Part shown: piece after piece, positions 1-37,106 of the stretch
Layout of the letters: each line of letters begins with the position of its first letter
Position numbering within the stretch: position 1 is the first letter of the stretch
Assembly: GCA_900095875.1 (NCBI GenBank)
Contig: LT608311.1
Span: 1,302,001 to 1,366,000 of the forward strand
DNA length: 64,000 nt
Direction of reading: 5' to 3'
Origin: Caecibacter massiliensis
GTDB taxonomy: Bacteria > Bacillota > Negativicutes > Veillonellales > Megasphaeraceae
Notes under the pieces: generated by a model
What the model saw: only the letters and a program-made list of their open reading frames with translations
The model's database searches: none
What the model was told of the DNA's origin: nothing
Program-made: the position numbers and the translations under genes

Positions 1-455
1 CCATGCATTATGTCAACGACCCGGAAACGATTCGTCAGCTGGACCATTTCGTTTCCATCAATGGCTGCATTGCCTGCGACCTCTACGGCCAGGTCAGCTC
101 CGAATCGGCGGGGACGCGGCAGATCAGTGGGACCGGCGGCCAGCTTGATTTTGTCACCGGTGCCTATACGGCAGAACACGGCCGGACCTTCCTGGCCATG
201 GCGTCGAGCCGGGTGGACAAGAAAGGCGTCCGCCATTCCAATATCGTACCATGCTTTACCGGCGGTGACATCATCACGACGCCGCGGGCACAGACCATGT
301 ACATCGTCACCGAATACGGGGCGGTCAATCTGGCCGGACTTACGACGTGGCAACGGGCAGAAAAACTGATTGGTATCGCTCATCCCGATTTCCGGGACGA
401 ACTCATCAAAGCCGCAGAACAACAGAAAATCTGGAGGAACAGTAACAAGAAATGA
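1..455 (+). CDS. Acetyl-CoA hydrolase/transferase family CoA-transferase, C-terminal part (5' cut by window edge)
   Basis: The reading frame is open at the window start, so about 150 C-terminal residues are seen. They contain the family's conserved patch with LYGQV, ESAG, ISGTGG and LDF, then IVTEYG and the tail [16 protein letters not shown]. The family (butyryl-CoA:acetate or 4-hydroxybutyrate CoA-transferase type) moves CoA between acyl-CoA and a free acid through a glutamyl-CoA thioester. It is clearly paralogous to the complete gene at 35748-37106 and to the decayed tail at 6918-7040. The stop overlaps the next start (ATGA), so the two genes are probably translationally coupled. Nearby iorAB makes acyl-CoA from 2-oxoacids, so recycling CoA from those products is a reasonable inference. 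Substrate unknown. Confidence 0.9.
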
Positions 456-1159
456 AATTTATCGTAGAAGACCGCATTTTTGAAAACGTACCTGATTTAT
501 ATATCGGTGTCGTCGCCGTTAAAGGCGTAGATAACAGCAAATCCTATCCGCAGATCGAAGCCATGCTGGACGAATCCATCGCTGCAGCACAGCAGAAATT
601 CGACGGTGTCAAAGTCAAGACATCGCCGGACATCGTGCCCTATCGCGAAGCGTTCCGCACGCTGGGCCTCAACCCAAACCGCTTCCCCTGCTCTGTCGAA
701 GCCATGTTCAACCGCATCAGCAAAGGCAAGGGGATGCCCCATATCAATCCGCTGGTGGACCTGAACAATGCCCTGTCCCTGAAATATACCATCCCCATGG
801 GGACCCATGACCTGGGCCGGTCGCCGGAAGATATGGAAATGCGTTACGCCCGGGAAGGCGACCATTTCCTGCCTTTCGGGGAAACGGAAGAAGAAGCGCC
901 CGGTGAAGACGAAGTCGTCTACGCCGTCGGCCATGAAGTCCGCACGCGCCGCTGGACCTGGCGCCAGAGCGAACACGGAAAAATCACGGCTGATACGAGC
1001 TATGTGTTCTTCCCTATCGACGGATTCGTCGATTTCAATAAAGACCGGGTTGATGCGGTCATCGCCGAACTGTCGGACATCCTGAAAAACGTCTTCGGAT
1101 GCCCTGTCGTAAGCGGCGTCGTCACCAAAGACCACCCGTCTGTTGATGTGACCTTATAA
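452..1159 (+). CDS. B3/B4 domain protein (PheRS beta-subunit editing-domain fold)
   Basis: This 235-residue protein has the stand-alone B3/4 layout: an N-terminal strand-rich part, [19 protein letters not shown] near residues 67-86, a central [15 protein letters not shown] segment, and a C-terminal part ending in a [11 protein letters not shown] motif. B3/4 domains occur in the phenylalanyl-tRNA synthetase beta chain, where they hydrolyse mischarged tRNA. Stand-alone versions are widespread and their role is poorly defined. The start overlaps the CoA-transferase stop by 4 bases, which suggests one transcript, and a strong terminator follows at 1178-1222. No signal peptide or membrane segment is visible. 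A tRNA-editing or amino-acid-binding role is only inference. Confidence 0.85.
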
Positions 1160-1177: not shown

Positions 1178-1222
1178 ACGGCCAGCAGAATGCCTGTCAG
1201 AGGCCTGCTGGCCGTTTTTTTT
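1178..1222 (+). terminator. Rho-independent terminator after CoA-transferase/B3-B4 operon
   Basis: A perfect 11-bp stem (ACGGCCAGCAG at 1178-1188 with CTGCTGGCCGT at 1205-1215) is followed by a T run through 1222. Confidence 0.9.
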
Positions 1223-1320
1223 GTCAAAGAGAGCAAAAAAATTTTACATATTATGGTATGGAGCGGCGGGAATACAAACCAGAAAGAGGATACTACTCCC
1301 GATTGTGTCGGTTTTATATT

Positions 1321-1340
1321 TTGGCATAACTGTTTCGTAT
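1321..1340 (+). promoter_or_regulatory. Candidate sigma-54 (-24/-12) promoter of the decayed iorA copy
   Basis: The sequence TTGGCATAACTGTTTCGTAT keeps the GG and TTnC elements at sigma-54 spacing (TGG at 1322, TTTC at 1333). It aligns with the candidate promoter of intact iorA at 7170-7186, and the similarity continues downstream (TATA, TTG, TGAT, CA). It lies about 35 bases before the remnant coding tail. Confidence 0.45.
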
Positions 1341-1358
1341 ACTTGAAATGATACATAG

Positions 1359-1442
1359 CATTACCTGATATACGATTGCGCCGCCTGCTTCCTGTGCGCC
1401 CAGGTCTGCCCGGTCAGAGCTATCGTTACAAAAGAATGGTAA
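1359..1442 (+). pseudogene. Remnant C-terminal ferredoxin segment of an iorA-like gene
   Basis: From 1374 the frame reads DCAACFLCAQVCPVRAIV and then KEW before a TAA at 1440-1442. This matches the last [4Fe-4S] motif of the intact IorA at 7247-9028 (DCVGCRVCAQVCPVKAIS). An in-frame stop (1356-1358) lies just upstream and nothing of the roughly 570 preceding residues remains, while an upstream segment resembling the iorA promoter is kept at 1321-1340. The pattern fits an internal deletion of about 1.7 kb in a second iorA copy. A terminator follows at 1455-1498. Confidence 0.75.
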
Positions 1443-1454
1443 ACCCATAGAAAA

Positions 1455-1498
1455 ATGACTCCTGTCATGGTACTCTTATAGGCAGGAGTTATTTTTTT
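1455..1498 (+). terminator. Terminator after the iorA remnant
   Basis: The stem ACTCCTG (1458-1464) pairs with CAGGAGT (1483-1489), extended by A/T pairs, and is followed by seven T. It separates the remnant from the activator gene whose RBS (GGGAGG) starts at 1502. Confidence 0.8.
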
Positions 1499-1516
1499 AC
1501 TGGGAGGTAAGGCTGT

Positions 1517-3472
1517 ATGGATAATGAACAACGGAAACGAATCTGGCAGCGGTTCATGGAAGACGGGACCCTGGACCCGCGCCTGCCGCCTCTTGTCGCC
1601 CGGTCATGGCAGGAATGCCGGTGCCGCGGTGTCGATCCCTGGCGGCGCAGCAGTACGACCGCCGATCCGGGGAAATGGCAGCAGATCCTGCAGCGCAGCC
1701 GTCTCCTTCTGCAGACGGCTGGTCCCATCATGCAGTCCGTCCATGAAATTATCCGCGATTCCCATTTCCTGCTGGCACTGACCGATGAAGAAGGCTATGT
1801 CCTGTCTACCATCGGCGATGATGCCATCCTGGCCCGTTCAGAAAATATCCTCTTCCGCCGGGGCTCGGTGTGGCGCAACGATCAGGTAGGGACTAATGCG
1901 CCGGGCATCGCCCTGGAATATAATCAGCCCGTCCAGCTCATCGGTGCCGAACATTACTGTGCCGACCAGCACGGCTGGACCTGCTCGGCTGCCCCTATCC
2001 ACGGCGTAGACGGAGCGGTCATCGGCAGCCTCGACTTATCGGGCAGTGCCGGAGCCGCCCATCCTCATACGCTGGCACTGGTCGTAGCCTGCGCGTTCAG
2101 TATCGAACGGACGCTCATCAGCTACCATCAGAGTCATTTCATGCGGGCCGCTGCTAACGGTATCCGCGAATCGATTCTGCTGCTGAATGACAAACTGGAA
2201 CTGCGCTGGGCCAATGCCACGGCCCAGCGGGAACTGGGCTTGTCCCAGGCCCGTCTGGCCGGACTCGACTTCCATCAGGTTATGCCCCAGGTCGATTGGG
2301 ACATGACCGATGATGCCCACCGCCATGCCCCGCTGTATATTGATGACCTGCGCGTCGTCCTGCCCGGAAATGTACGCCGGTTCAGTGCGACCATCTCCCA
2401 GACTGCCGACGCGACAGGCCGGACCTATACGGTTATCCTGCGACGGCAGGAACACCTCTTCCGTTCAGTCAACCGCGTGTCGGGCAATCAGGCCGCCTAT
2501 ACCTTTGGCGATATCTATGCGGCCGATCCCCTGATGAAACAGGTCATCGACCGGGCGCGCCAGTATGCCCGCTATGATGGCAGCGTCCTCATCGAAGGCG
2601 AAAGCGGTACGGGCAAAGAACTGTTTGCCCAGGCCATCCACTCGGGCAGCAGCCGGGCTGACGGCCCCTTTGTCGCCGTCAACTGTGCTTCCCTGCCGCG
2701 GGATCTCATGGAAAGCGAACTGTTCGGTTATGAAAAAGGCGCCTTTACCGGAGCTCTCCGGGAGGGAAATCCGGGAAAATTCGAGCTGGCCGACCATGGC
2801 ACCCTGTTTCTCGACGAAATCGGGGAAATGCCTATCGAATTCCAGGCCAAACTGCTGCGTGCCGTAGAGACATTGCGCATCCGCCGTATCGGCGGTAAAG
2901 AAGAGAAAAAACTGGATGTACGGGTCATTGCAGCGACAAACCGCCATCTCGAACAGGAAGTAGGACGGGGAGCCTTCCGGGGCGATCTCTACTACCGGCT
3001 CAACGTCCTGCGTCTCGACATCCCGCCCCTGCGCCAGCGGCCCGGCGATATCGCCTGTTGTACAGACCGTTTCCTGGCCCGGTTTAACAAACGATATCCC
3101 AGCCGGCAGCGCCACCTGGCTCCCGATGCCATGCCGGCGCTTTTGGCCTATGACTGGCCTGGTAACGTGCGGGAATTGCAGAATGCCCTGGAACGAGCCT
3201 TTTATACCAGCAGTGGCCCGGCTATTACGGCATCAGACTTTCATCTGCCTTCATCACAGCATGATGCCCTATCGCCATCGTCTCCCCTTTCTCCGGAATC
3301 TCCGGCGGAAGCTGCTTCGTATGAACGAGCCGAATGCCTGCACTATCTCGAAGAAGCCCGGGGCTGCGTCGAACAGGCGGCGTCTGCCATGGGCGTCAGC
3401 CGGGCCACCTTTTACCGCCTGTGCCGTCACTATGGCATCGTGCCGAAACAGATCCGCCGGCAATTTCACTAA
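1517..3472 (+). CDS. Sigma-54-dependent transcriptional activator, AcoR type (GAF-PAS-AAA-Fis)
   Basis: This 651-residue enhancer-binding protein activates RNA polymerase carrying sigma-54. The N-terminal 60-200 region fits the GAF sensor of AcoR-like regulators (NQVGTNAPG-like and GWTCSAAPI segments). A PAS-like region lies at about 205-310. The AAA+ domain carries a Walker A GESGTGKE at 361-368, an intact GAFTGA loop at 408-413 that contacts sigma-54, and a LDEIGEMP Walker B. A Fis-type helix-turn-helix ends the protein (GVSRATFYRLC). There is no receiver domain, so it probably senses a small molecule directly. The ATG at 1517 has GGGAGG 8 bases upstream. It lies just before the FucO-like gene, which has -24/-12-like sequences, and rpoN is 11 kb away, so local control is inferred. 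Confidence 0.93.
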   Translation: MDNEQRKRIWQRFMEDGTLDPRLPPLVARSWQECRCRGVDPWRRSSTTADPGKWQQILQRSRLLLQTAGPIMQSVHEIIRDSHFLLALTDEEGYVLSTIGDDAILARSENILFRRGSVWRNDQVGTNAPGIALEYNQPVQLIGAEHYCADQHGWTCSAAPIHGVDGAVIGSLDLSGSAGAAHPHTLALVVACAFSIERTLISYHQSHFMRAAANGIRESILLLNDKLELRWANATAQRELGLSQARLAGLDFHQVMPQVDWDMTDDAHRHAPLYIDDLRVVLPGNVRRFSATISQTADATGRTYTVILRRQEHLFRSVNRVSGNQAAYTFGDIYAADPLMKQVIDRARQYARYDGSVLIEGESGTGKELFAQAIHSGSSRADGPFVAVNCASLPRDLMESELFGYEKGAFTGALREGNPGKFELADHGTLFLDEIGEMPIEFQAKLLRAVETLRIRRIGGKEEKKLDVRVIAATNRHLEQEVGRGAFRGDLYYRLNVLRLDIPPLRQRPGDIACCTDRFLARFNKRYPSRQRHLAPDAMPALLAYDWPGNVRELQNALERAFYTSSGPAITASDFHLPSSQHDALSPSSPLSPESPAEAASYERAECLHYLEEARGCVEQAASAMGVSRATFYRLCRHYGIVPKQIRRQFH

Positions 3473-3727: not shown

Positions 3728-4879
3728 ATGGCAAATAAGATTACATTGAATGAAACATCGTATTTTGGCAAAGGTGCCATTAACGAAATCGTAACAGAAG
3801 TCAAAAACCGCGGCTGCCAGCATGTCGTCGTCATCACCGACAAGGACCTCATGAAATTTAAAGTAGCGACGAAAATCACAGACCTGTTCGATGGGGCCGG
3901 CATTGCCTATACCGTTTACGATCATATCAAACCGAACCCGACCATCCAGAATGTACAGGAAGGCGTCGAATTCTGCAAGCAGGCTAAAGCCGATATTATC
4001 GTAGCCGTCGGCGGCGGTGCTGCCATGGATACATCCAAGGCCATTGCCATCATCCTCACCAATCCGGAATTTGCCGACGTACGCAGCCTCGAAGGGGCAT
4101 CGCCGACGAAAAACAAATGTCTGCCCATCATTGCCGTTTCTACGACCAGCGGCACGGCAGCCGAAGTAACCATCAACTACGTCATTACTGACCCGGAAAA
4201 ACACCGTAAATTCGTCTGCTGTGACCCCCACGATATCCCTATCGTAGCCGTCATCGACCCTGATATGGTCGCATCGATGCCGAAGAAACTCTGTGCCGCT
4301 ACTGGCATGGACGCTCTCGTACACGCTATCGAAGGCTATATTACAAAGAACGCCTGGGAAATGACCGATATGATGCATCTCAAAGCCATTGAAATCATCA
4401 GCAAATGGCTTCGTAAATCCGTCGAAGGCGACATGAAAGCCCGTGAAGAAATGGCCCTCGGCCAGTATATCGCCGGCATGGGATTCTCCAACGTCGGCCT
4501 CGGCATCGATCACTCCATGGCCCATCCCCTCAGTGCCTTCTATGACATTCCTCACGGTGTAGCTTGTGCTATCCTCCTGGCACCGGTCCTCACCTTCAAT
4601 GCTGAAGCAACGGGCGAACGCTACCGTGAAGTAGCCCGTGCCATGGGCGTCGCCGGTGTCGATGACATGAGCCAGGAAGAATACCGCAAGGCTGCTATCG
4701 ATGCCTGCCAGAAACTGGCCGATGATGTCGGAATTCCCCGTAAATTATCTGACCTGGGCGTACAGGAAAAAGACATCGACTTCCTTGCCGACTCTGCCAT
4801 GGCCGATGCCTGCACACCGGGCAATCCTCGTGATGTAGAAAAATCCCAGATCGTCGCTCTCTACAAATCCATTCTTTAA
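3728..4879 (+). CDS. fucO: Iron-containing (group III) alcohol dehydrogenase, lactaldehyde reductase (FucO)-like
   Basis: This 383-residue protein has an NAD-binding half with GGGAAMDTSKA near residues 97-107 and a metal-binding half. The metal ligands appear in MDALVHAIEGY (Asp, His) and in the paired histidines of IDHSMAHPL and DIPHGVA. Long stretches agree with E. coli FucO (NPEFADVRSLEG, GTAAEVTINYVITD, KFVCVDPHDIP-like, MGFSNVGLG), so lactaldehyde/1,2-propanediol oxidoreductase is the closest named role. No fucose genes lie nearby, and the flanking sigma-54 activators and iorAB suggest an aldehyde/alcohol role in amino-acid or diol fermentation. RBS AGGAGG is 8 bases before the ATG. Confidence 0.88.
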   Translation: MANKITLNETSYFGKGAINEIVTEVKNRGCQHVVVITDKDLMKFKVATKITDLFDGAGIAYTVYDHIKPNPTIQNVQEGVEFCKQAKADIIVAVGGGAAMDTSKAIAIILTNPEFADVRSLEGASPTKNKCLPIIAVSTTSGTAAEVTINYVITDPEKHRKFVCCDPHDIPIVAVIDPDMVASMPKKLCAATGMDALVHAIEGYITKNAWEMTDMMHLKAIEIISKWLRKSVEGDMKAREEMALGQYIAGMGFSNVGLGIDHSMAHPLSAFYDIPHGVACAILLAPVLTFNAEATGERYREVARAMGVAGVDDMSQEEYRKAAIDACQKLADDVGIPRKLSDLGVQEKDIDFLADSAMADACTPGNPRDVEKSQIVALYKSIL

Positions 4880-6810: not shown

Positions 6811-6917
6811 AGTCGCCCTCCTTTTCTTTGTACCAGTGTATAACGGAATAGAACAACTGTAAATATCTGATGTAAAGAAGGTAAAAAAATATATACAAAT
6901 GAGGATGCGGCGCTTCC

Positions 6918-7040
6918 GGACACCGGGCGGAAAAATTGATCGGTGTCGCCCATCCCGGTTTCCGGGAAGACTTCATCGAGGCCGCAGAGGCACAGTATAT
7001 CTGGCGGCGGAGCTATAAGAAGCAGTGCTGTGATGCCTGA
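6918..7040 (+). pseudogene. Remnant C-terminal tail of a CoA-transferase
   Basis: The frame reads GH, then [20 protein letters not shown], then AEAQYIW and ends at TGA 7038-7040. This is the C-terminal tail of the CoA-transferase family and is close to the first gene of the window ([20 protein letters not shown]). Nothing of the upstream roughly 410 residues remains and a stop precedes it at 6900. It lies between the PrpR-type activator and iorA and mirrors the iorA tail found after the intact CoA-transferase. This points to an old duplication with complementary deletions. Confidence 0.8.
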
Positions 7041-7156
7041 GAGTGAAGCTGCCGGGTGAATATAAAAGGTGGTGTAAAGGATGACAAAGAAATTTTACGT
7101 CTTGTGAAATGAGCGGAAAATCCAGTACGGAAAAAACGCATGGCTAAGGCATTTTG

Positions 7157-7173
7157 CCAGATACGATATCTGG
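7157..7173. promoter_or_regulatory. 17-bp perfect palindrome upstream of iorA
   Basis: CCAGATA-CGA-TATCTGG is a perfect 7-3-7 inverted repeat. Its right arm overlaps the CTGG of the candidate -24 element, so a protein bound here would block rather than enhance that promoter. No second copy was found near the other candidates. Confidence 0.5.
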
Positions 7174-7186
7174 TACGGTTATTTCA
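7170..7186 (+). promoter_or_regulatory. Candidate sigma-54 (-24/-12) promoter of iorAB
   Basis: CTGGTACGGTTATTTCA matches the consensus YTGGCACG-N4-TTGCW at all but two positions, with correct GG-to-TTnC spacing. It lies about 60 bases before iorA. The PrpR-type activator is divergently transcribed next door. The rest of the 6811-7246 gap holds the CoA-transferase remnant and no other gene. Confidence 0.5.
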
Positions 7187-7246
7187 TATATAGTTGTGTG
7201 ATGCAGTCATTTAGTTTACGTTCTAAAAAGGACGGGAGGTCTATAC

Positions 7247-9028
7247 ATGAAAAAATTACTTTCTGGTAATGAAGCGATTGCCCGCGGGCTCTATGAAGCA
7301 GGCGTCAGCTTTGCATCAGCTTACCCGGGTACGCCGAGTACAGAAATCCTGGAAAACGTAGCCAGGTACGATGAAATCTACTCCGAATGGGCACCGAATG
7401 AAAAGGTTGCCGTCGAAGCGGCTATCGGGGCATCCATGGGCGGTGTCCGGTCGTTTGCAGCCATGAAGATGGTCGGCCTCAACGTAGCGGCTGATCCGAT
7501 GTTTACTTTTGCCTATCAGGGAATCAACGGCGGCATGGCCTTCGTCAATGCCGATGACCCGGGCATGCATTCCTCACAGAACGAACAGGATAACCGCCGC
7601 TATGCCAAGGCGATGAAAATTTGTATGCTCGAACCGGCTGATTCACAGGAATGTCTCGATATGACCCGGGCAGCTTATGAAATCAGCGAAAAATACGGAT
7701 CGCCGGTCATGATCCGCCTGACGACCCGGGTGGACCATTCCAAGAGCCTGGTCGAACTGGGTGAACGGAAGGAAGTCCCAGCTGTTCCCTATGTCAAACA
7801 ACGGGACCGCCTCGATGATGTGCCGGCCGTTTCCAAGCAGCGCCGCTATGTCATTGAAGAACGGGAAAAACAGCTGAAAGAATATTCGGAAAATTCTCCT
7901 TTTAACTATGAAGAAATGCACGATACGAAAATCGGGATCGTCGCATCCGGCGTGGCTTATATGTATGCCAAAGAAGTGCTGGGAGACAAGGCGTCGTACC
8001 TGAAAATCGGCTTTTCCTATCCTCTGCCGATTGAAAAAATCCGTGCTTTTTCCAAAAAAGTAGATACATTGTATGTCGTCGAAGAACTGGATCCGGTCAT
8101 GGAAGAACAGATAAAAGCGGCCGGCATCAACTGTCACGGCAAGGATGTCATCCCAAATATTGATGAACTCAATCCCAATATCGTGGCTACGGGCATCCTG
8201 GGTAAGGGTTTCCCCAGCAAGACTGTTCCCGATGGCCTGTTTGTCCCCCGTCCGCCTGCTCTTTGTGCTGGCTGTCCTCACCGGGGATTCTTCTATGAAC
8301 TGGGCAAGCGCAAAGATACGGTCATGGTCGGCGATATCGGCTGTTATGCCCTGGGCGGGTCGGAACCGCTCAATGCCAAGGATCTAGGTGGCTGCATGGG
8401 CAGTGCCTTCTCTATCGGCCACGGCATGAGCCACGCCTTCTCCAAGAGCGGCCAGCAGAAACGGGTCGTCGCCTGCATGGGCGATTCTACCTTTTTCCAT
8501 ACGGGCATCAATTCTCTCACGGAAGTATCGTACAATAAATCCAATACAATCTGCGTCATTCTCGATAACCGGATTACCGGCATGACCGGGCACCAGGACA
8601 ACCCCGGTTCGGGCTACAATATCAAAGGCGAACCGACGACGCTCATCGATGTGGAACGGGTCGTCCACGCCTTGGGACTGAAGAACGTCCGCACGGTCAA
8701 TCCCAACAACCTGGCCGATATGAAAGCAACCCTCGACTGGGCCTATTCTCTGGAAAATGAACCGGTAGTCATCATCACCAGATGGCCGTGTGTACTCAAG
8801 AAATTCTCCCAGGAAGATGCGGAAGAATTCAATCTGGATCATACGCCGTGCGTCGTCGATGAAGAAAAATGCATCGGCTGCAAGAAGTGCATGACCACAG
8901 GCTGTCCGGCACTGCGCTTCAATCTGAAAGATAAGAAATCGGAAATCGTCGAAAGCGACTGCGTTGGCTGCCGCGTATGCGCACAGGTCTGCCCGGTCAA
9001 GGCTATCAGCAGAAAGGGGTATAAATAA
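7247..9028 (+). CDS. iorA: Indolepyruvate ferredoxin oxidoreductase, alpha subunit
   Basis: This 593-residue subunit carries the pyrimidine-binding N-terminal domain (AYPGTPSTEI), a central linker domain and the TPP/Mg-binding domain (GDIGCYALGG near 361, GDSTFFHTG near 415). Two C-terminal [4Fe-4S] motifs start at Cys542 (CIGCKKCMTTGCP) and Cys572 (CVGCRVCAQVCP). With IorB it oxidatively decarboxylates aryl-pyruvates (from Trp, Phe, Tyr) to acyl-CoA, reducing ferredoxin in the cytoplasm. The ATG has GGGAGG 8 bases upstream. The stop overlaps iorB (TAATG). Sigma-54 control is inferred from the upstream element at 7170 and the divergent activator. Confidence 0.95.
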   Translation: MKKLLSGNEAIARGLYEAGVSFASAYPGTPSTEILENVARYDEIYSEWAPNEKVAVEAAIGASMGGVRSFAAMKMVGLNVAADPMFTFAYQGINGGMAFVNADDPGMHSSQNEQDNRRYAKAMKICMLEPADSQECLDMTRAAYEISEKYGSPVMIRLTTRVDHSKSLVELGERKEVPAVPYVKQRDRLDDVPAVSKQRRYVIEEREKQLKEYSENSPFNYEEMHDTKIGIVASGVAYMYAKEVLGDKASYLKIGFSYPLPIEKIRAFSKKVDTLYVVEELDPVMEEQIKAAGINCHGKDVIPNIDELNPNIVATGILGKGFPSKTVPDGLFVPRPPALCAGCPHRGFFYELGKRKDTVMVGDIGCYALGGSEPLNAKDLGGCMGSAFSIGHGMSHAFSKSGQQKRVVACMGDSTFFHTGINSLTEVSYNKSNTICVILDNRITGMTGHQDNPGSGYNIKGEPTTLIDVERVVHALGLKNVRTVNPNNLADMKATLDWAYSLENEPVVIITRWPCVLKKFSQEDAEEFNLDHTPCVVDEEKCIGCKKCMTTGCPALRFNLKDKKSEIVESDCVGCRVCAQVCPVKAISRKGYK

Positions 9029-9618
9029 TGAGTGATGTAACGAATGTACTGCTCGTCGGTGTCGGCGGACAAGGAACTATTCTGGCCAGTAAAATCCTGA
9101 CCATGGGTCTCATAGAAAACGGATATGATGTAAAAATGTCGGAAGTACATGGCATGAGCCAGCGTGGCGGCAGCGTCAGCACTCAGGTCCGCTTCGGGAA
9201 AAAGGTCTATTCTCCGATTATCGGGGAAGGCATGGCAGATATCCTCGTCGCCTTTGAAGAAATGGAAGCGGCCCGCTATGCCAAATTCCTGAAACCCGAT
9301 GGCAAGATGGTCATCAACCGGCTCTGCATCCCGTCCCTGCCGGTCCTCTCCGGTCAGGTTGCCTATCCGGAACACATTATTGAATCACTGAAAAAAGATT
9401 TCCCTGTACTCGACCTCGATGCTACCCGCATTGCTACGGAAATCGGCAATCCCAAGAGTGCCAACGTCGTACTCCTGGGGGCTCTCGTCCAGGCACTGGG
9501 CCTGACCAACCTGGACTGGTCGGACTTCATTTCCCGTACGGTCAAACCGAAATTCGTCGATGTCAATCTCAAGGCCTTCCAGAAAGGCCGCGAAGCCGTC
9601 GCAGGCGGGGAAAGATAG
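9028..9618 (+). CDS. iorB: Indolepyruvate ferredoxin oxidoreductase, beta subunit
   Basis: This 196-residue gamma-type subunit of the 2-oxoacid:ferredoxin oxidoreductase family has the CoA-binding fold signature VGVGGQGTILASKIL near the N-terminus and MSQRGGSVSTQVRFG at about 43-57. It pairs with IorA in a single coupled transcript (start overlaps the iorA stop by one base). Length is normal for IorB. A strong terminator follows at 9673. Confidence 0.95.
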   Translation: MSDVTNVLLVGVGGQGTILASKILTMGLIENGYDVKMSEVHGMSQRGGSVSTQVRFGKKVYSPIIGEGMADILVAFEEMEAARYAKFLKPDGKMVINRLCIPSLPVLSGQVAYPEHIIESLKKDFPVLDLDATRIATEIGNPKSANVVLLGALVQALGLTNLDWSDFISRTVKPKFVDVNLKAFQKGREAVAGGER

Positions 9619-14466: not shown

Positions 14467-15753
14467 ATGGCAAAGATAGCACTTAAACTGGAACAGAAAA
14501 CAAAATTGTCCCAGATACAGCGGCTGACCATTCAGATGCTGACCCTTCATTCACAAGATCTGACCGATTTCCTCCATGAACAGGTGACCGATAATCCCCT
14601 CCTCGATATCCGGTATAAAGATGTCCGTTCCAGCAGCGGAGACGGCAAGGAAAAACCCATTGACAATATCAAGAACCGCGGGGATTCACTGGAAACGGGG
14701 CTCATGAAACAACTGCGGGTACAAAACGTTCCGAAACCGGTTATGCTGGCTGCCGGCCTTATCATCCGCTCCCTTGATGAAAAAGGTTTCTTTGCCGGTG
14801 ATCTTGACCTTCTGGGCCAGGATTATGCCCTGTCGCTGGAAGATATGGAAAAAGGACTGGCTCTGGTGCAATCCTTTGATCCGCCGGGCATCGGGGCCCG
14901 TTCTATCTGTGAAGCCCTGCTTATCCAGACCCGGCGCCATGACGATGCCCCGCCGCGGACGGAAGAACTCCTGCAGGACCATTATCAGGAATTCCTCACG
15001 GGGAAATGGCAGAAGCTGCAGAAAGAAATGGAACTCAGCAATACGGATCTTCAGGCTATACGGGATTTTCTGAAGACGCTGGCTCTGCAGCCTGCCGGAC
15101 AGGCTGAGACGGAAACGGAGTTCGTCCGCCCCGATGTAGAAATCTATACCGATGAATCGGGCCATCTGGCGGTCCGTTCTCTGGAAGAACTGCCGGAAGT
15201 GTTTTTTCGTGAAGACCTTTATAAGGAATATGAAGAACAAGGCGACAAAAAGACGCGGACCTATATCCACAAGGCACGGAGGGCTTTCCTCGACCTCCAG
15301 TCGGCTCTGGCCTATCGCTGGCAGTCTATTTTTACGGTCATGGATTGTATCATACGCCATCAGGAGGGTCATTTCCTCTATGGCGATACGCTGCAGCCCC
15401 TGCGCCAGAAAGATATAGCTGTCGAAACGGGACTAAGCACGGCGACAGTGAGCCGTGTCTGTCATGGCAGATATGTTCTCTTTGACCGCCGGACCTATGC
15501 CATACAGGATTTCTTTGCCCAGTCCTACCGGAGAGACAGCGGGGCTGAAGGGGAAATTTCTGATCAGGCCATCCGGCAGAAAATGGCTGAGCTGATTAAG
15601 GAAGAAGATGCAGCTCACCCCTATTCCGATCAGGAACTGGCCGACCGCTTCGCCGCCGCCGATATCCATATTGCCCGCCGGACCATAACGAAATTCCGCC
15701 TGAAAATGCATATCCCCAACAGCAGTATCCGCCGGAGACTGAAAAACGGATGA
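14467..15753 (+). CDS. rpoN: RNA polymerase sigma-54 factor
   Basis: This 428-residue sigma-54 has the glutamine/leucine-rich activator-response region I at the start (LEQKTKLSQIQRLTIQMLTL), a core-binding region, a helix-turn-helix region (VETGLSTATVSRVCHGRYV) and the near-C-terminal RpoN box ARRTITKFR that reads the -24 element. The length is typical of short Firmicutes versions. It is monocistronic with its own extended -10 promoter and RBS AAAGGAC. Two sigma-54 activators and three -24/-12-like sequences in the first 7.3 kb are its likely local partners. Confidence 0.96.
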   Translation: MAKIALKLEQKTKLSQIQRLTIQMLTLHSQDLTDFLHEQVTDNPLLDIRYKDVRSSSGDGKEKPIDNIKNRGDSLETGLMKQLRVQNVPKPVMLAAGLIIRSLDEKGFFAGDLDLLGQDYALSLEDMEKGLALVQSFDPPGIGARSICEALLIQTRRHDDAPPRTEELLQDHYQEFLTGKWQKLQKEMELSNTDLQAIRDFLKTLALQPAGQAETETEFVRPDVEIYTDESGHLAVRSLEELPEVFFREDLYKEYEEQGDKKTRTYIHKARRAFLDLQSALAYRWQSIFTVMDCIIRHQEGHFLYGDTLQPLRQKDIAVETGLSTATVSRVCHGRYVLFDRRTYAIQDFFAQSYRRDSGAEGEISDQAIRQKMAELIKEEDAAHPYSDQELADRFAAADIHIARRTITKFRLKMHIPNSSIRRRLKNG

Positions 15754-35747: not shown

Positions 35748-37106
35748 ATGTACAAACTTTCACAAATTGCAGAAGAGTACCAAAAGAAACTCGTGACGCC
35801 GCAGGAAGCGGCAGCTGTCGTCAAAAGCGGAGACCGTGTATCGTACGGCCTTGGCTGTTCGGCACCGTATGATACGGATAAAGCGCTGGCCGACCATATC
35901 AATAAGGATGGCTTGAAAGATGTGGAAATCATCGATGCGACGCTGATTCAGGATCATCCGTTCTTTACCTATACGGAAACGGAATCCAACGATCAGGTCC
36001 GTTTCGTATCGGGCCATTTCAATGGATTCGACCGCAAGATGAATAAAGCCGGCCGCTGCTGGTTCATGCCGCTCCTCTTTAATGAACTGCCGAAATACTG
36101 GAGCCATAAAAAAGTGGATGTCGCCATTTTCCAGGTACATCCGATGGATAAATGGGGCAACTTCAATCTGGGGCCTCAGGTAGCCGATTTAAGGGGCATT
36201 CTCAAATCGGCGGATAAGGTCATCGTAGAAGTCAATCAGAAAATGCCGAAGGCACTGGGCTATGAAACGGAACTGAATATTGCCGATGTCGATTTCATCG
36301 TCGAAGGGTCCAACCCGGATATGCCGATTGTCCCGAATAAACCGTCGACCCCGGTCGATGATAAAATTGCCAACTTCGTCGTACCGATGATCAAAGATGG
36401 CAGTACGCTGCAGCTCGGTATCGGCGGGATTCCGTCCGCTATTGGCCATAAACTGGCAGAATCGGATGTCAAAGACCTGAGCGGTCATACGGAAATGCTG
36501 GTAGATCCCTATGTCGAATTGTACGAAGCCGGGAAAATTACCGGTAAAAAGAATCGCGACAGAGGTAAAATCATGTATACCTTCGCCGGTGGCACACAGC
36601 GTCTGTATGATTTTATCGATGACAACCAGATCGTGTTCAATGCACCGGTCAACTATGTCAACAATATCAATGTCGTTGCCAGCATTGACAACTTTGTTTC
36701 TATCAACAGCTGCATCAACCTTGACCTTTATGGTCAGGTCTGCGCCGAATCGGCAGGTTACCGCCATATCAGTGGTACCGGCGGTGCGCTGGACTTCGCA
36801 CAGGGAGCCTATCTTTCCGAAGGTGGCCAGGGCTTCATCTGCGTCCATTCGACGCGTAAACTGAAAGATGGCAGTCTGGAATCGCTGATCCGCCCGACTC
36901 TGACTCCGGGATCTGTCGTCACGACACCGCGTTCGGCCGTTCACTACATCGTTACCGAATACGGCGTAGCCCTCCTCAAAGGCCAGTCCACATGGCAGCG
37001 GGCAGAAGCGCTGATTAATATTGCTCATCCTGATTTCCGGGAAGAACTCATTAAAGAAGCAGAAAAAATGGGCATCTGGACGAAGACGAGCAAGACAGAA
37101 TACTGA
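35748..37106 (+). CDS. Butyryl-CoA:acetate-type CoA-transferase (acetyl-CoA hydrolase/transferase family)
   Basis: This 452-residue enzyme has both family domains: an N-terminal half with SGDRVSYGLGCSAP and HPMDKWGNFNLG, and a C-terminal half with LQLGIGGIPSAIG (CoA loop), LYGQVCAESAG (catalytic Glu) and HISGTGGALDF. It swaps CoA between acyl-CoA and acetate, a step that releases butyrate, propionate or similar end products in this kind of fermenter. AAGGAGG at 35730 and the ATG at 35748 define the start. It has a sigma-70 promoter, unlike the suspected sigma-54 setting of its paralogue at the window start. Confidence 0.93.
   Translation: MYKLSQIAEEYQKKLVTPQEAAAVVKSGDRVSYGLGCSAPYDTDKALADHINKDGLKDVEIIDATLIQDHPFFTYTETESNDQVRFVSGHFNGFDRKMNKAGRCWFMPLLFNELPKYWSHKKVDVAIFQVHPMDKWGNFNLGPQVADLRGILKSADKVIVEVNQKMPKALGYETELNIADVDFIVEGSNPDMPIVPNKPSTPVDDKIANFVVPMIKDGSTLQLGIGGIPSAIGHKLAESDVKDLSGHTEMLVDPYVELYEAGKITGKKNRDRGKIMYTFAGGTQRLYDFIDDNQIVFNAPVNYVNNINVVASIDNFVSINSCINLDLYGQVCAESAGYRHISGTGGALDFAQGAYLSEGGQGFICVHSTRKLKDGSLESLIRPTLTPGSVVTTPRSAVHYIVTEYGVALLKGQSTWQRAEALINIAHPDFREELIKEAEKMGIWTKTSKTEY

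Follow-up and report, generated by a model that had tools for sequence, protein, structure and literature searches.

A CoA-transferase gene remnant before iorA in Caecibacter massiliensis, probably a fossil of operon duplication and partial deletion

Introduction

The nearest described system to the operon considered here is the ZypR sigma-54 regulon tyrB-iorAB-butK, which was predicted by comparative genomics in Clostridioides, Clostridium, and Romboutsia. In the part of that study used here, its UAS motif is a TGT...ACA inverted repeat with 10–12 bp between the halves, and its promoter consensus is TTGGCAT-N5-TTGCT (PMC6615313). Another described case is HpdDEFG-HpdJ-HpdK, the tyrosine oxidation cluster of Clostridium scatologenes, in which, according to the main text of its description, a ferredoxin oxidoreductase takes arylpyruvate to acyl-CoA and energy is saved; Megasphaera is not named in that main text (PMC13285125).

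Literature searches found no work combining indolepyruvate ferredoxin oxidoreductase, CoA-transferase, and phenylacetate, none combining Megasphaera, indolepyruvate, aminotransferase, and CoA transferase, and nothing related for any three of iorA, iorB, CoA-transferase, and Megasphaera. We take the gene names tyrB-iorAB-butK to stand for an aminotransferase, iorAB, and an enzyme for the acyl-CoA product. Partial gene remnants after tandem duplication and deletion are of a general kind in bacterial genomes. Here, we follow up an earlier note on a 64,000-nucleotide stretch of Caecibacter massiliensis DNA ("the window", meaning the whole stretch analyzed), which had reported the tail of a CoA-transferase gene directly before iorA.

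Results

A CoA-transferase remnant without sign of function

The cluster contains the following features (window coordinates, strand; G000 is the window's own genome).

1..455 (+): 3' end of the intact CoA-transferase gene (CoAT; whole gene G000:C2:1301118-1302452 without stop, 445 aa; Pfam AcetylCoA_hydro, AcetylCoA_hyd_C)
452..1159 (+): B3/4-domain protein, overlapping the CoAT stop
1180..1222 (+): terminator-like hairpin with T-run after B3/4 (fold z, terminator scan)
1222..1248 (no strand): UAS3, enhancer-like palindrome, 1 mismatch
1321..1337 (+): TTGGCAT-N5-TTTCG, resembling a sigma-54-type promoter, its start 99 bp after that of UAS3
1374..1442 (+): remnant of the iorA C-terminus, with a single 4Fe-4S motif and the stop
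1444..1504 (+): strong hairpin with T-run, after the iorA remnant and before the activator gene (fold)
1517..3472 (+): sigma-54 activator with GAF domain, working label AcoR (domain search)
3728..4879 (+): iron alcohol dehydrogenase, lactaldehyde-reductase type, above the cut-offs of NF007911 and TIGR02638
4936..6810 (-): PrpR_N-like sigma-54 activator divergent from iorA, working label PrpR_B (domain search)
6871..6897 (no strand): UAS1, enhancer-like palindrome, positioned as in relatives
6912..7040 (+): CoAT C-terminal remnant, the stump (homology)
7073..7099 (no strand): UAS2, enhancer-like palindrome (palindrome search, relatives' alignment)
7170..7186 (+): promoter-like element of the sigma-54 type before iorA_B, one mismatch from the pattern
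7247..9028 (+): iorA_B, alpha subunit of indolepyruvate ferredoxin oxidoreductase (TIGR03336, 670.4 bits, cut-off 650.9)
9028..9618 (+): iorB_B, beta subunit (NF005325, 272.6, cut-off 230)

PrpR is a working label only, since the scores of PrpR_B for PrpR_N (26.7 against a cut-off of 29.1) and TIGR02329 (276.5 against 499.2) both fall below cut-off. The intact CoAT scores 514.6 bits against TIGR03948 (butyryl-CoA:acetate CoA-transferase), under the cut-off of 674.8 and within the same superfamily.

The CoAT tail before iorA is real. A search of the complete own genome with the C-terminal 150 aa of the intact CoAT recovered the stump (E 5.5e-9, 64% over 36 residues) inside a 45-aa open frame, and a 35-aa C-terminal piece recovered it at E 1.1e-10. 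It comprises about 33 homologous codons on the plus strand, followed by five unrelated codons and a stop, and matches the intact CoAT at 75 of 99 nucleotides and 23 of 33 amino acids when codon-aligned, or at 77 of 101 sites in a plain DNA alignment. Depending on the query, homology sets in somewhere from 6909 to 6924; it runs to about 7022, within a stretch (6909-7040) that translates into 43 residues; it covers one end of the intact gene only, residues ~409/412-445 of 445. The boundaries given before (6918-7040, 38 codons) are thus right to a few bases, but the last five of those codons (QCCDA) have no homology to CoAT. Assembly error is an unlikely source, since the stump and the intact CoAT differ at a quarter of their sites.

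We found no sign of function for the stump in its start codons, in orphan matches across the genus, or in codon-position differences. Read by eye, the 45-codon frame holds neither ATG nor GTG and a single TTG without a clear ribosome site; it remains open through the stop codon. Differences from the own CoAT number 9, 3, and 12 at codon positions 1, 2, and 3, a count over only 33 codons that includes the own CoAT's branch. A search for CoAT tails in 15 genus genomes gave 56 matches, 43 of them with E up to 2.7e-8, and 42 of these 43 lay in frames of at least 390 aa, which leaves the stump as the lone orphan among strong matches and no strong orphan tail in the other 14 genomes. Among the 13 weaker matches, one in G001 (E 0.0056) lies in a short frame with stops. 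Likewise, only the window's own upstream region, among the 15 compared, held a CoAT remnant.

In DNA, the nearest gene to the stump is the intact CoAT of the cluster, with 24 differences in 99 sites; that of G001 follows (28), and three other CoATs of the own genome differ at 40, 35, and 39 sites. At the protein level the own, G001, G002, and G004 CoATs tie, and in a search with 122 query proteins the best E belonged to the CoAT of G002. How little 99 sites can resolve is seen in the own CoAT and its paralogue at window 35772-37094, which differ at only 23 of the same sites though the whole proteins are 45% identical. The phylogeny of the tail, which the earlier note had put forward as a check, shows no clear grouping with a distant lineage but gives no firm placement: p-AU was 0.548 with the own CoAT, 0.207 with the paralogue (ownP1), and 0.229 with the genus CoATs and the stump as one clade. 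Both the DNA comparison and this tree included only three other own CoATs, and the short ownP4 row, from a truncated copy of the ownP2 gene, was left out of the tree.

The operon and its order in the genus

The own genome (2 contigs, 2,650,542 bases) holds a second intact iorA, iorA_A, at G000:C2:1296149-1297921, ~4.1 kb before the window start and 69% identical to iorA_B. The cluster therefore extends beyond what the earlier note could see: iorAB_A is followed by a transporter (MFS), an aminotransferase, and the intact CoAT, which itself starts outside the window. From the left, the order is activator A (-), iorA_A, iorB_A, MFS transporter, aminotransferase, CoAT, B3/4, and the iorA remnant, then the GAF-type sigma-54 activator, iron alcohol dehydrogenase, activator B (-), the CoAT remnant, iorA_B, iorB_B, and an M20 peptidase. 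A row at L031 2150-10016, with two adjacent M20 amidohydrolase-like, three GntR-type regulator, and two cyclase-like genes (labels by eye), gives more signs of tandem duplication near the cluster.

Across the genus, iorA was detected at E 1e-50 in 12 of 15 genomes (own included) and CoAT at E 1e-100 in all 15. All 11 other iorA-bearing genomes have CoAT on the same strand as iorAB and no more than ~5 kb downstream, and in eight of these 11 an aminotransferase lies between them. The functional link drawn earlier between the two genes is therefore real even without the stump, and CoAT/iorA adjacency, the lack of which would have told against the earlier note's interpretation, is a feature of the relatives. 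The conserved order is, however, activator, then iorA-iorB-...-CoAT: an intact operon with CoAT before iorAB, for which the earlier note had proposed a synteny check, was not found, and CoAT ending directly upstream of iorA occurred neither in the genus loci nor among the best 80 loci of a search beyond the genus. In 12 of those 80 loci, many of which end at contig ends and for which neighbors with matches over 60 bits were considered, CoAT follows iorAB on the same strand; four of the 12 are Megasphaera records, and the order also occurs in Pyramidobacter, Lachnospiraceae, and Oscillospiraceae. Rumen-type Pyramidobacter bins (L059, L088, L123) carry an iorA 61–70% identical to the window's, in L059 in the order iorA-iorB-CoAT, which may reflect inter-phylum transfer or a binning error.

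Parts of the downstream half recur as well. In G007 and G011, a GAF activator and an alcohol dehydrogenase follow CoAT, and G008, a 78% complete assembly, has CoAT, activator, and dehydrogenase and no iorA. For the B3/4 protein, matches at E 1e-10 were limited to the own genome and G011, two of the 15 in the genus. Among the 11 genomes above, G006 has a decayed operon (L045 7587-10793) in which activator and iorA are fragmented and an in-frame fusion links the front of iorB to the back of CoAT, so internal deletions do happen in the ior operon. An apparent insert in the iorA of G013 was rejected as a run of N. Two iorA genes were found in the own genome only, among the 15, and no tandem intermediate was found in these genomes.

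In tree tests, copies A and B as sisters were not rejected for iorA (p-AU 0.113) or iorB (p-AU 0.253; Osc and Lachno rows were left out of both tests) and were rejected for the activators (p-AU 0.00057), so modules A and B are not simply recent twins. Proteins with <60% of a reference covered or <38% identity were dropped from the protein trees; of the own CoAT and aminotransferase, present in two overlapping loci, the CoAT double was dropped and the aminotransferase double kept.

The window's sigma-54 gene (14467-15753; Pfam Sigma54_DBD/CBD/AID) lies ~5 kb from iorA_B and has no other match to itself in the own genome at E 1e-10; in G001, G009, G012, and G013 a sigma-54 gene stands directly behind the ior-operon activator.

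Two control-region palindromes around the stump

Between the starts of activator and iorA there are 203–263 bp in nine relatives, against 436 bp in the window. These nine are what remains of 13 relatives' loci after G006, without an iorA start, and G014, G015, and G016, without an activator start (for which 450 bp upstream were taken). Each of the nine regions contains one TGTAAA-N15/16-TTTACA palindrome with ≤1 mismatch per half, and eight have a promoter-like GG-N10-(T/G)C ~90 bp past it. In the window the palindrome is present twice, as UAS1 and UAS2 with one mismatch each, and the CoAT stump lies between the copies. The stretch ATGACAAAGAAATTTTACG after the stump, which has the look of a B3/4 start (MKKF...), was rejected as such: it is the UAS2 palindrome, common to the relatives' iorA control regions.

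The flanks of the stump correspond to two sides of such regions. The left piece (6811-6912) resembles the activator side of some relatives, aligning with positions 11-84 in G002 and 8-105 in G011, and the right piece (7041-7246) resembles the iorA side, aligning with 60-226 in G013, 81-233 in G009, and 60-188 in G012. Since each of these ranges includes the relative's palindrome, the palindrome stretch is present twice, with the stump filling the gap. Against 200 dinucleotide shuffles, z was 9.7, 8.0, and 6.3 for the right piece with G013, G009, and G012, which form one close lineage and so limit this support, then 3.4 with G007, 3.1 with G015 and G016, 2.7 with G002, and ≤1.8 with the others (G001, G003, G004, G011, G014, and own A, -1.1 to 1.8, not above chance). 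For the left piece it was 7.0 with G011, 6.1 with G002, 3.8 with own A, 3.5 with G012, 2.7 with G013, and ≤1.8 with the others (G001, G003, G004, G007, G009, G014, G015, and G016, 0.3 to 1.8, not above chance). Because G015 and G016, which belong to the sister genus, score near 3 as well, only the high values count. Compared with one another, the left and right pieces scored no better than chance (z 0.6 and 1.1), which argues that they have long diverged.

UAS3, UAS1, and UAS2 are the sole one-mismatch N15 palindromes in the window. With up to two mismatches, six were found against 1.85 expected, a number reached in 1 of 100 shuffles, while the N16 form is at chance level there. When up to one mismatch is allowed, the whole own genome has nine N15 palindromes, three of them within these 6 kb; genome-wide the form is no commoner than a reversed control (9 vs 9 places). 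The sigma-54 promoter pattern is at chance in the window (5 found, 4.8 expected), so the promoter-like elements count only by their place. Two palindromes need not in themselves mean duplication, since the control region of G011 has an additional looser one with a longer gap and several UAS before one sigma-54 operon are said to be common in Clostridiales in the part of PMC6615313 used here.

The -12 element reads TTTC at the iorA promoters of G001, G003, G004, G007, G009, G012, and G013 and at window 1321 and 7170, and TTGC in G011; that study gives TTGC as the consensus in Clostridiales (PMC6615313, in part). TTTC may be a sigma-54 preference specific to the genus.

An iorA remnant after the intact CoA-transferase

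The second observation of the earlier note, an iorA tail after the intact CoAT, also holds. The frame from 1302 ends ...YDCAACFLCAQVCPVRAIVTKEW*, and its last 22 codons (1374-1442, plus strand) contain one 4Fe-4S motif and the stop. The best protein match is to the iorA of G014 (71% over 21 residues, E 1.7e-4 in the 38 kb searched), with 70% over 20 residues for iorA_A and 59% over 22 for iorA_B. Sequence alone does not set the remnant apart from generic ferredoxins (E 2.4e-4, versus 9.8e-5 elsewhere in the same genome), and we identify it as iorA by the iorA-type enhancer just upstream. In the search with 122 proteins, from which matches in annotated genes or outside cluster positions 9900-31000 were left out, 1374-1439 was the only other convincing remnant between cluster genes (best E 1.7e-4). 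At E 1 there were no further ones besides weak antisense iorA matches at 6829-6918 (E 0.22–0.37) and, beyond 11179, an annotated gene and three weak matches.

The hairpin region before UAS3 (1160-1235) has a fold z of -5.1; the terminator scan overall found seven candidates against 5.2 expected. The hairpin at 1444-1504 reaches -31 kcal/mol (z -6.2), its T-run pairs with an A-run in the fold, and it is absent from the terminator scan. UAS3 (1222), the sigma-54-type promoter, the iorA stump, and this very stable hairpin (1321-1504) form a possible transcription unit of ~170 nt before the GAF activator gene.

Discussion

Tandem duplication followed by partial deletion is our best reading of the stump, which we regard as a non-functional fossil of a second CoAT gene; we give the two jointly a probability of roughly 0.68. 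The duplicated segment would have begun shortly before the palindrome (left break) and ended directly behind CoAT (right break), producing activator, UAS-P-iorA...CoAT-UAS-P-iorA. A deletion that began some 10–25 bp beyond UAS1 and reached into the first CoAT as far as about codon 410 would then have left UAS1, the CoAT stump, and an intact second UAS-P-iorA_B-iorB_B. A similar but separate collapse may account for 1222-1442, where almost all of another iorA would have been lost, with UAS3, the promoter, and the last 22 codons remaining. This event would have had other breakpoints, since the B3/4 gene and the terminator-like hairpin stand between CoAT and UAS3. A CoAT-iorA junction is best made in this way because the conserved order is iorA-iorB-...-CoAT and no CoAT-iorA block was seen, and at the stump's junction a duplicated flank was found, with a UAS stretch to the left and to the right that in each case aligns with some relatives. 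The 15 genus genomes contained no intact tandem intermediate.

The model of the earlier note, spelled out with the parts described here, is instead that a single segment, CoAT-(B3/4)-UAS-promoter-iorA, was duplicated once, that the activators came to lie between the copies, and that opposite halves were lost. Its core stands, in that duplication and loss remain the best account and both stumps mark a past CoAT followed by an iorA promoter, but the ancestral CoAT-iorA block it assumed is present in no locus examined. In favor of one block, both places have CoAT and then UAS-promoter-iorA with no activator between, the first place is closest to the right-hand UAS piece (z 6.0; 33 of 45 sites), and both have a 27-nt palindrome 97–99 bp from the promoter, against 28 nt and 88 bp before iorA_A. 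The similarity of the first place extends, however, to the iorA_A control region (z 5.0) and to UAS1 (z 4.4), and extra steps would be needed for UAS1 and for iorA_A with its own activator. Nor are the two junctions, as they stand, copies of one block: the first has B3/4 and the terminator-like hairpin between CoAT and UAS, while the second has 32 bp and no B3/4 remnant (E 1). We therefore consider a single duplicated block unlikely.

A more elaborate proposal is that the collapse rewired control. The gene iorA_B would have gained two activator sites ~200 bp apart with the stump as spacer, and, in addition, the orphan UAS3-promoter-iorA stump (1222-1504) would make a short terminated RNA or leak into the GAF activator gene, giving an activator cascade. 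We think this combination quite improbable.

The stump might also be a stray insertion of ~130 bp, by illegitimate recombination or transposition, into the activator-iorA control region, with no tandem stage. This would fit the shortness of the piece and the fact that a tandem operon is not seen in relatives, but the piece would need to have landed exactly where an enhancer site is doubled, the sequence to its right would need to match, from the UAS onward, what lies between the two genes in relatives, and the donor is a gene normally part of the same operon, all of which makes it highly improbable. That the stump was kept for a purpose, as spacer DNA between enhancers or a short translated leader, is scarcely credible: both palindromes are retained with one mismatch each and the frame is open through its stop, but there is no ATG or GTG in frame (by eye), none of the other 14 genomes of the genus has a strong orphan match, and half of the differences from the own CoAT fall at codon positions 1 and 2.

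Under the duplication–deletion reading, the stump is ordinary genome wear with an unusually readable history, a scar left by operon duplication and decay in which the enhancer copies were retained; as far as is visible, it makes no change to the cell. What the comparison brought out is the genus-conserved operon itself, a sigma-54 activator, iorAB, often an aminotransferase, and a CoA-transferase, with a sigma-54 gene close by. The products of iorA_B and iorB_B score above curated cut-offs for indolepyruvate ferredoxin oxidoreductase, and, judging from the gene families, the probable role of the operon is to ferment aromatic or related amino acids oxidatively. The aminotransferase would act first, IorAB would then yield an acyl-CoA, and CoAT would pass the CoA to another acid. 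This offers a testable route for the fermentation of aromatic or branched-chain amino acids by these anaerobes.

Comparison with known systems

As in other remnants of tandem duplication and deletion, a truncated paralogue lies here beside intact copies, with a short flanking duplication; the one difference is that the duplicated flank is an identifiable regulatory site.

Like the HpdDEFG-HpdJ-HpdK cluster as its main text describes it, the operon would oxidize arylpyruvate via a ferredoxin oxidoreductase to an energy-conserving acyl-CoA, here by inference from families (PMC13285125). That oxidoreductase has four subunits and is nearer to VOR than to IOR, unlike the one here, and a phosphotransferase and kinase there have a CoA-transferase as their counterpart here (PMC13285125).

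With the ZypR regulon, as far as the part of the study used here describes it, the locus shares a sigma-54 activator over an operon with aminotransferase, iorAB, and an enzyme for the acyl-CoA product (PMC6615313). It differs in having a CoA-transferase in butK's place, 21 bp between TGT and ACA instead of 10–12 bp, and a -12 element that is mostly TTTC, and in that the operon here is partly doubled and decayed (PMC6615313).
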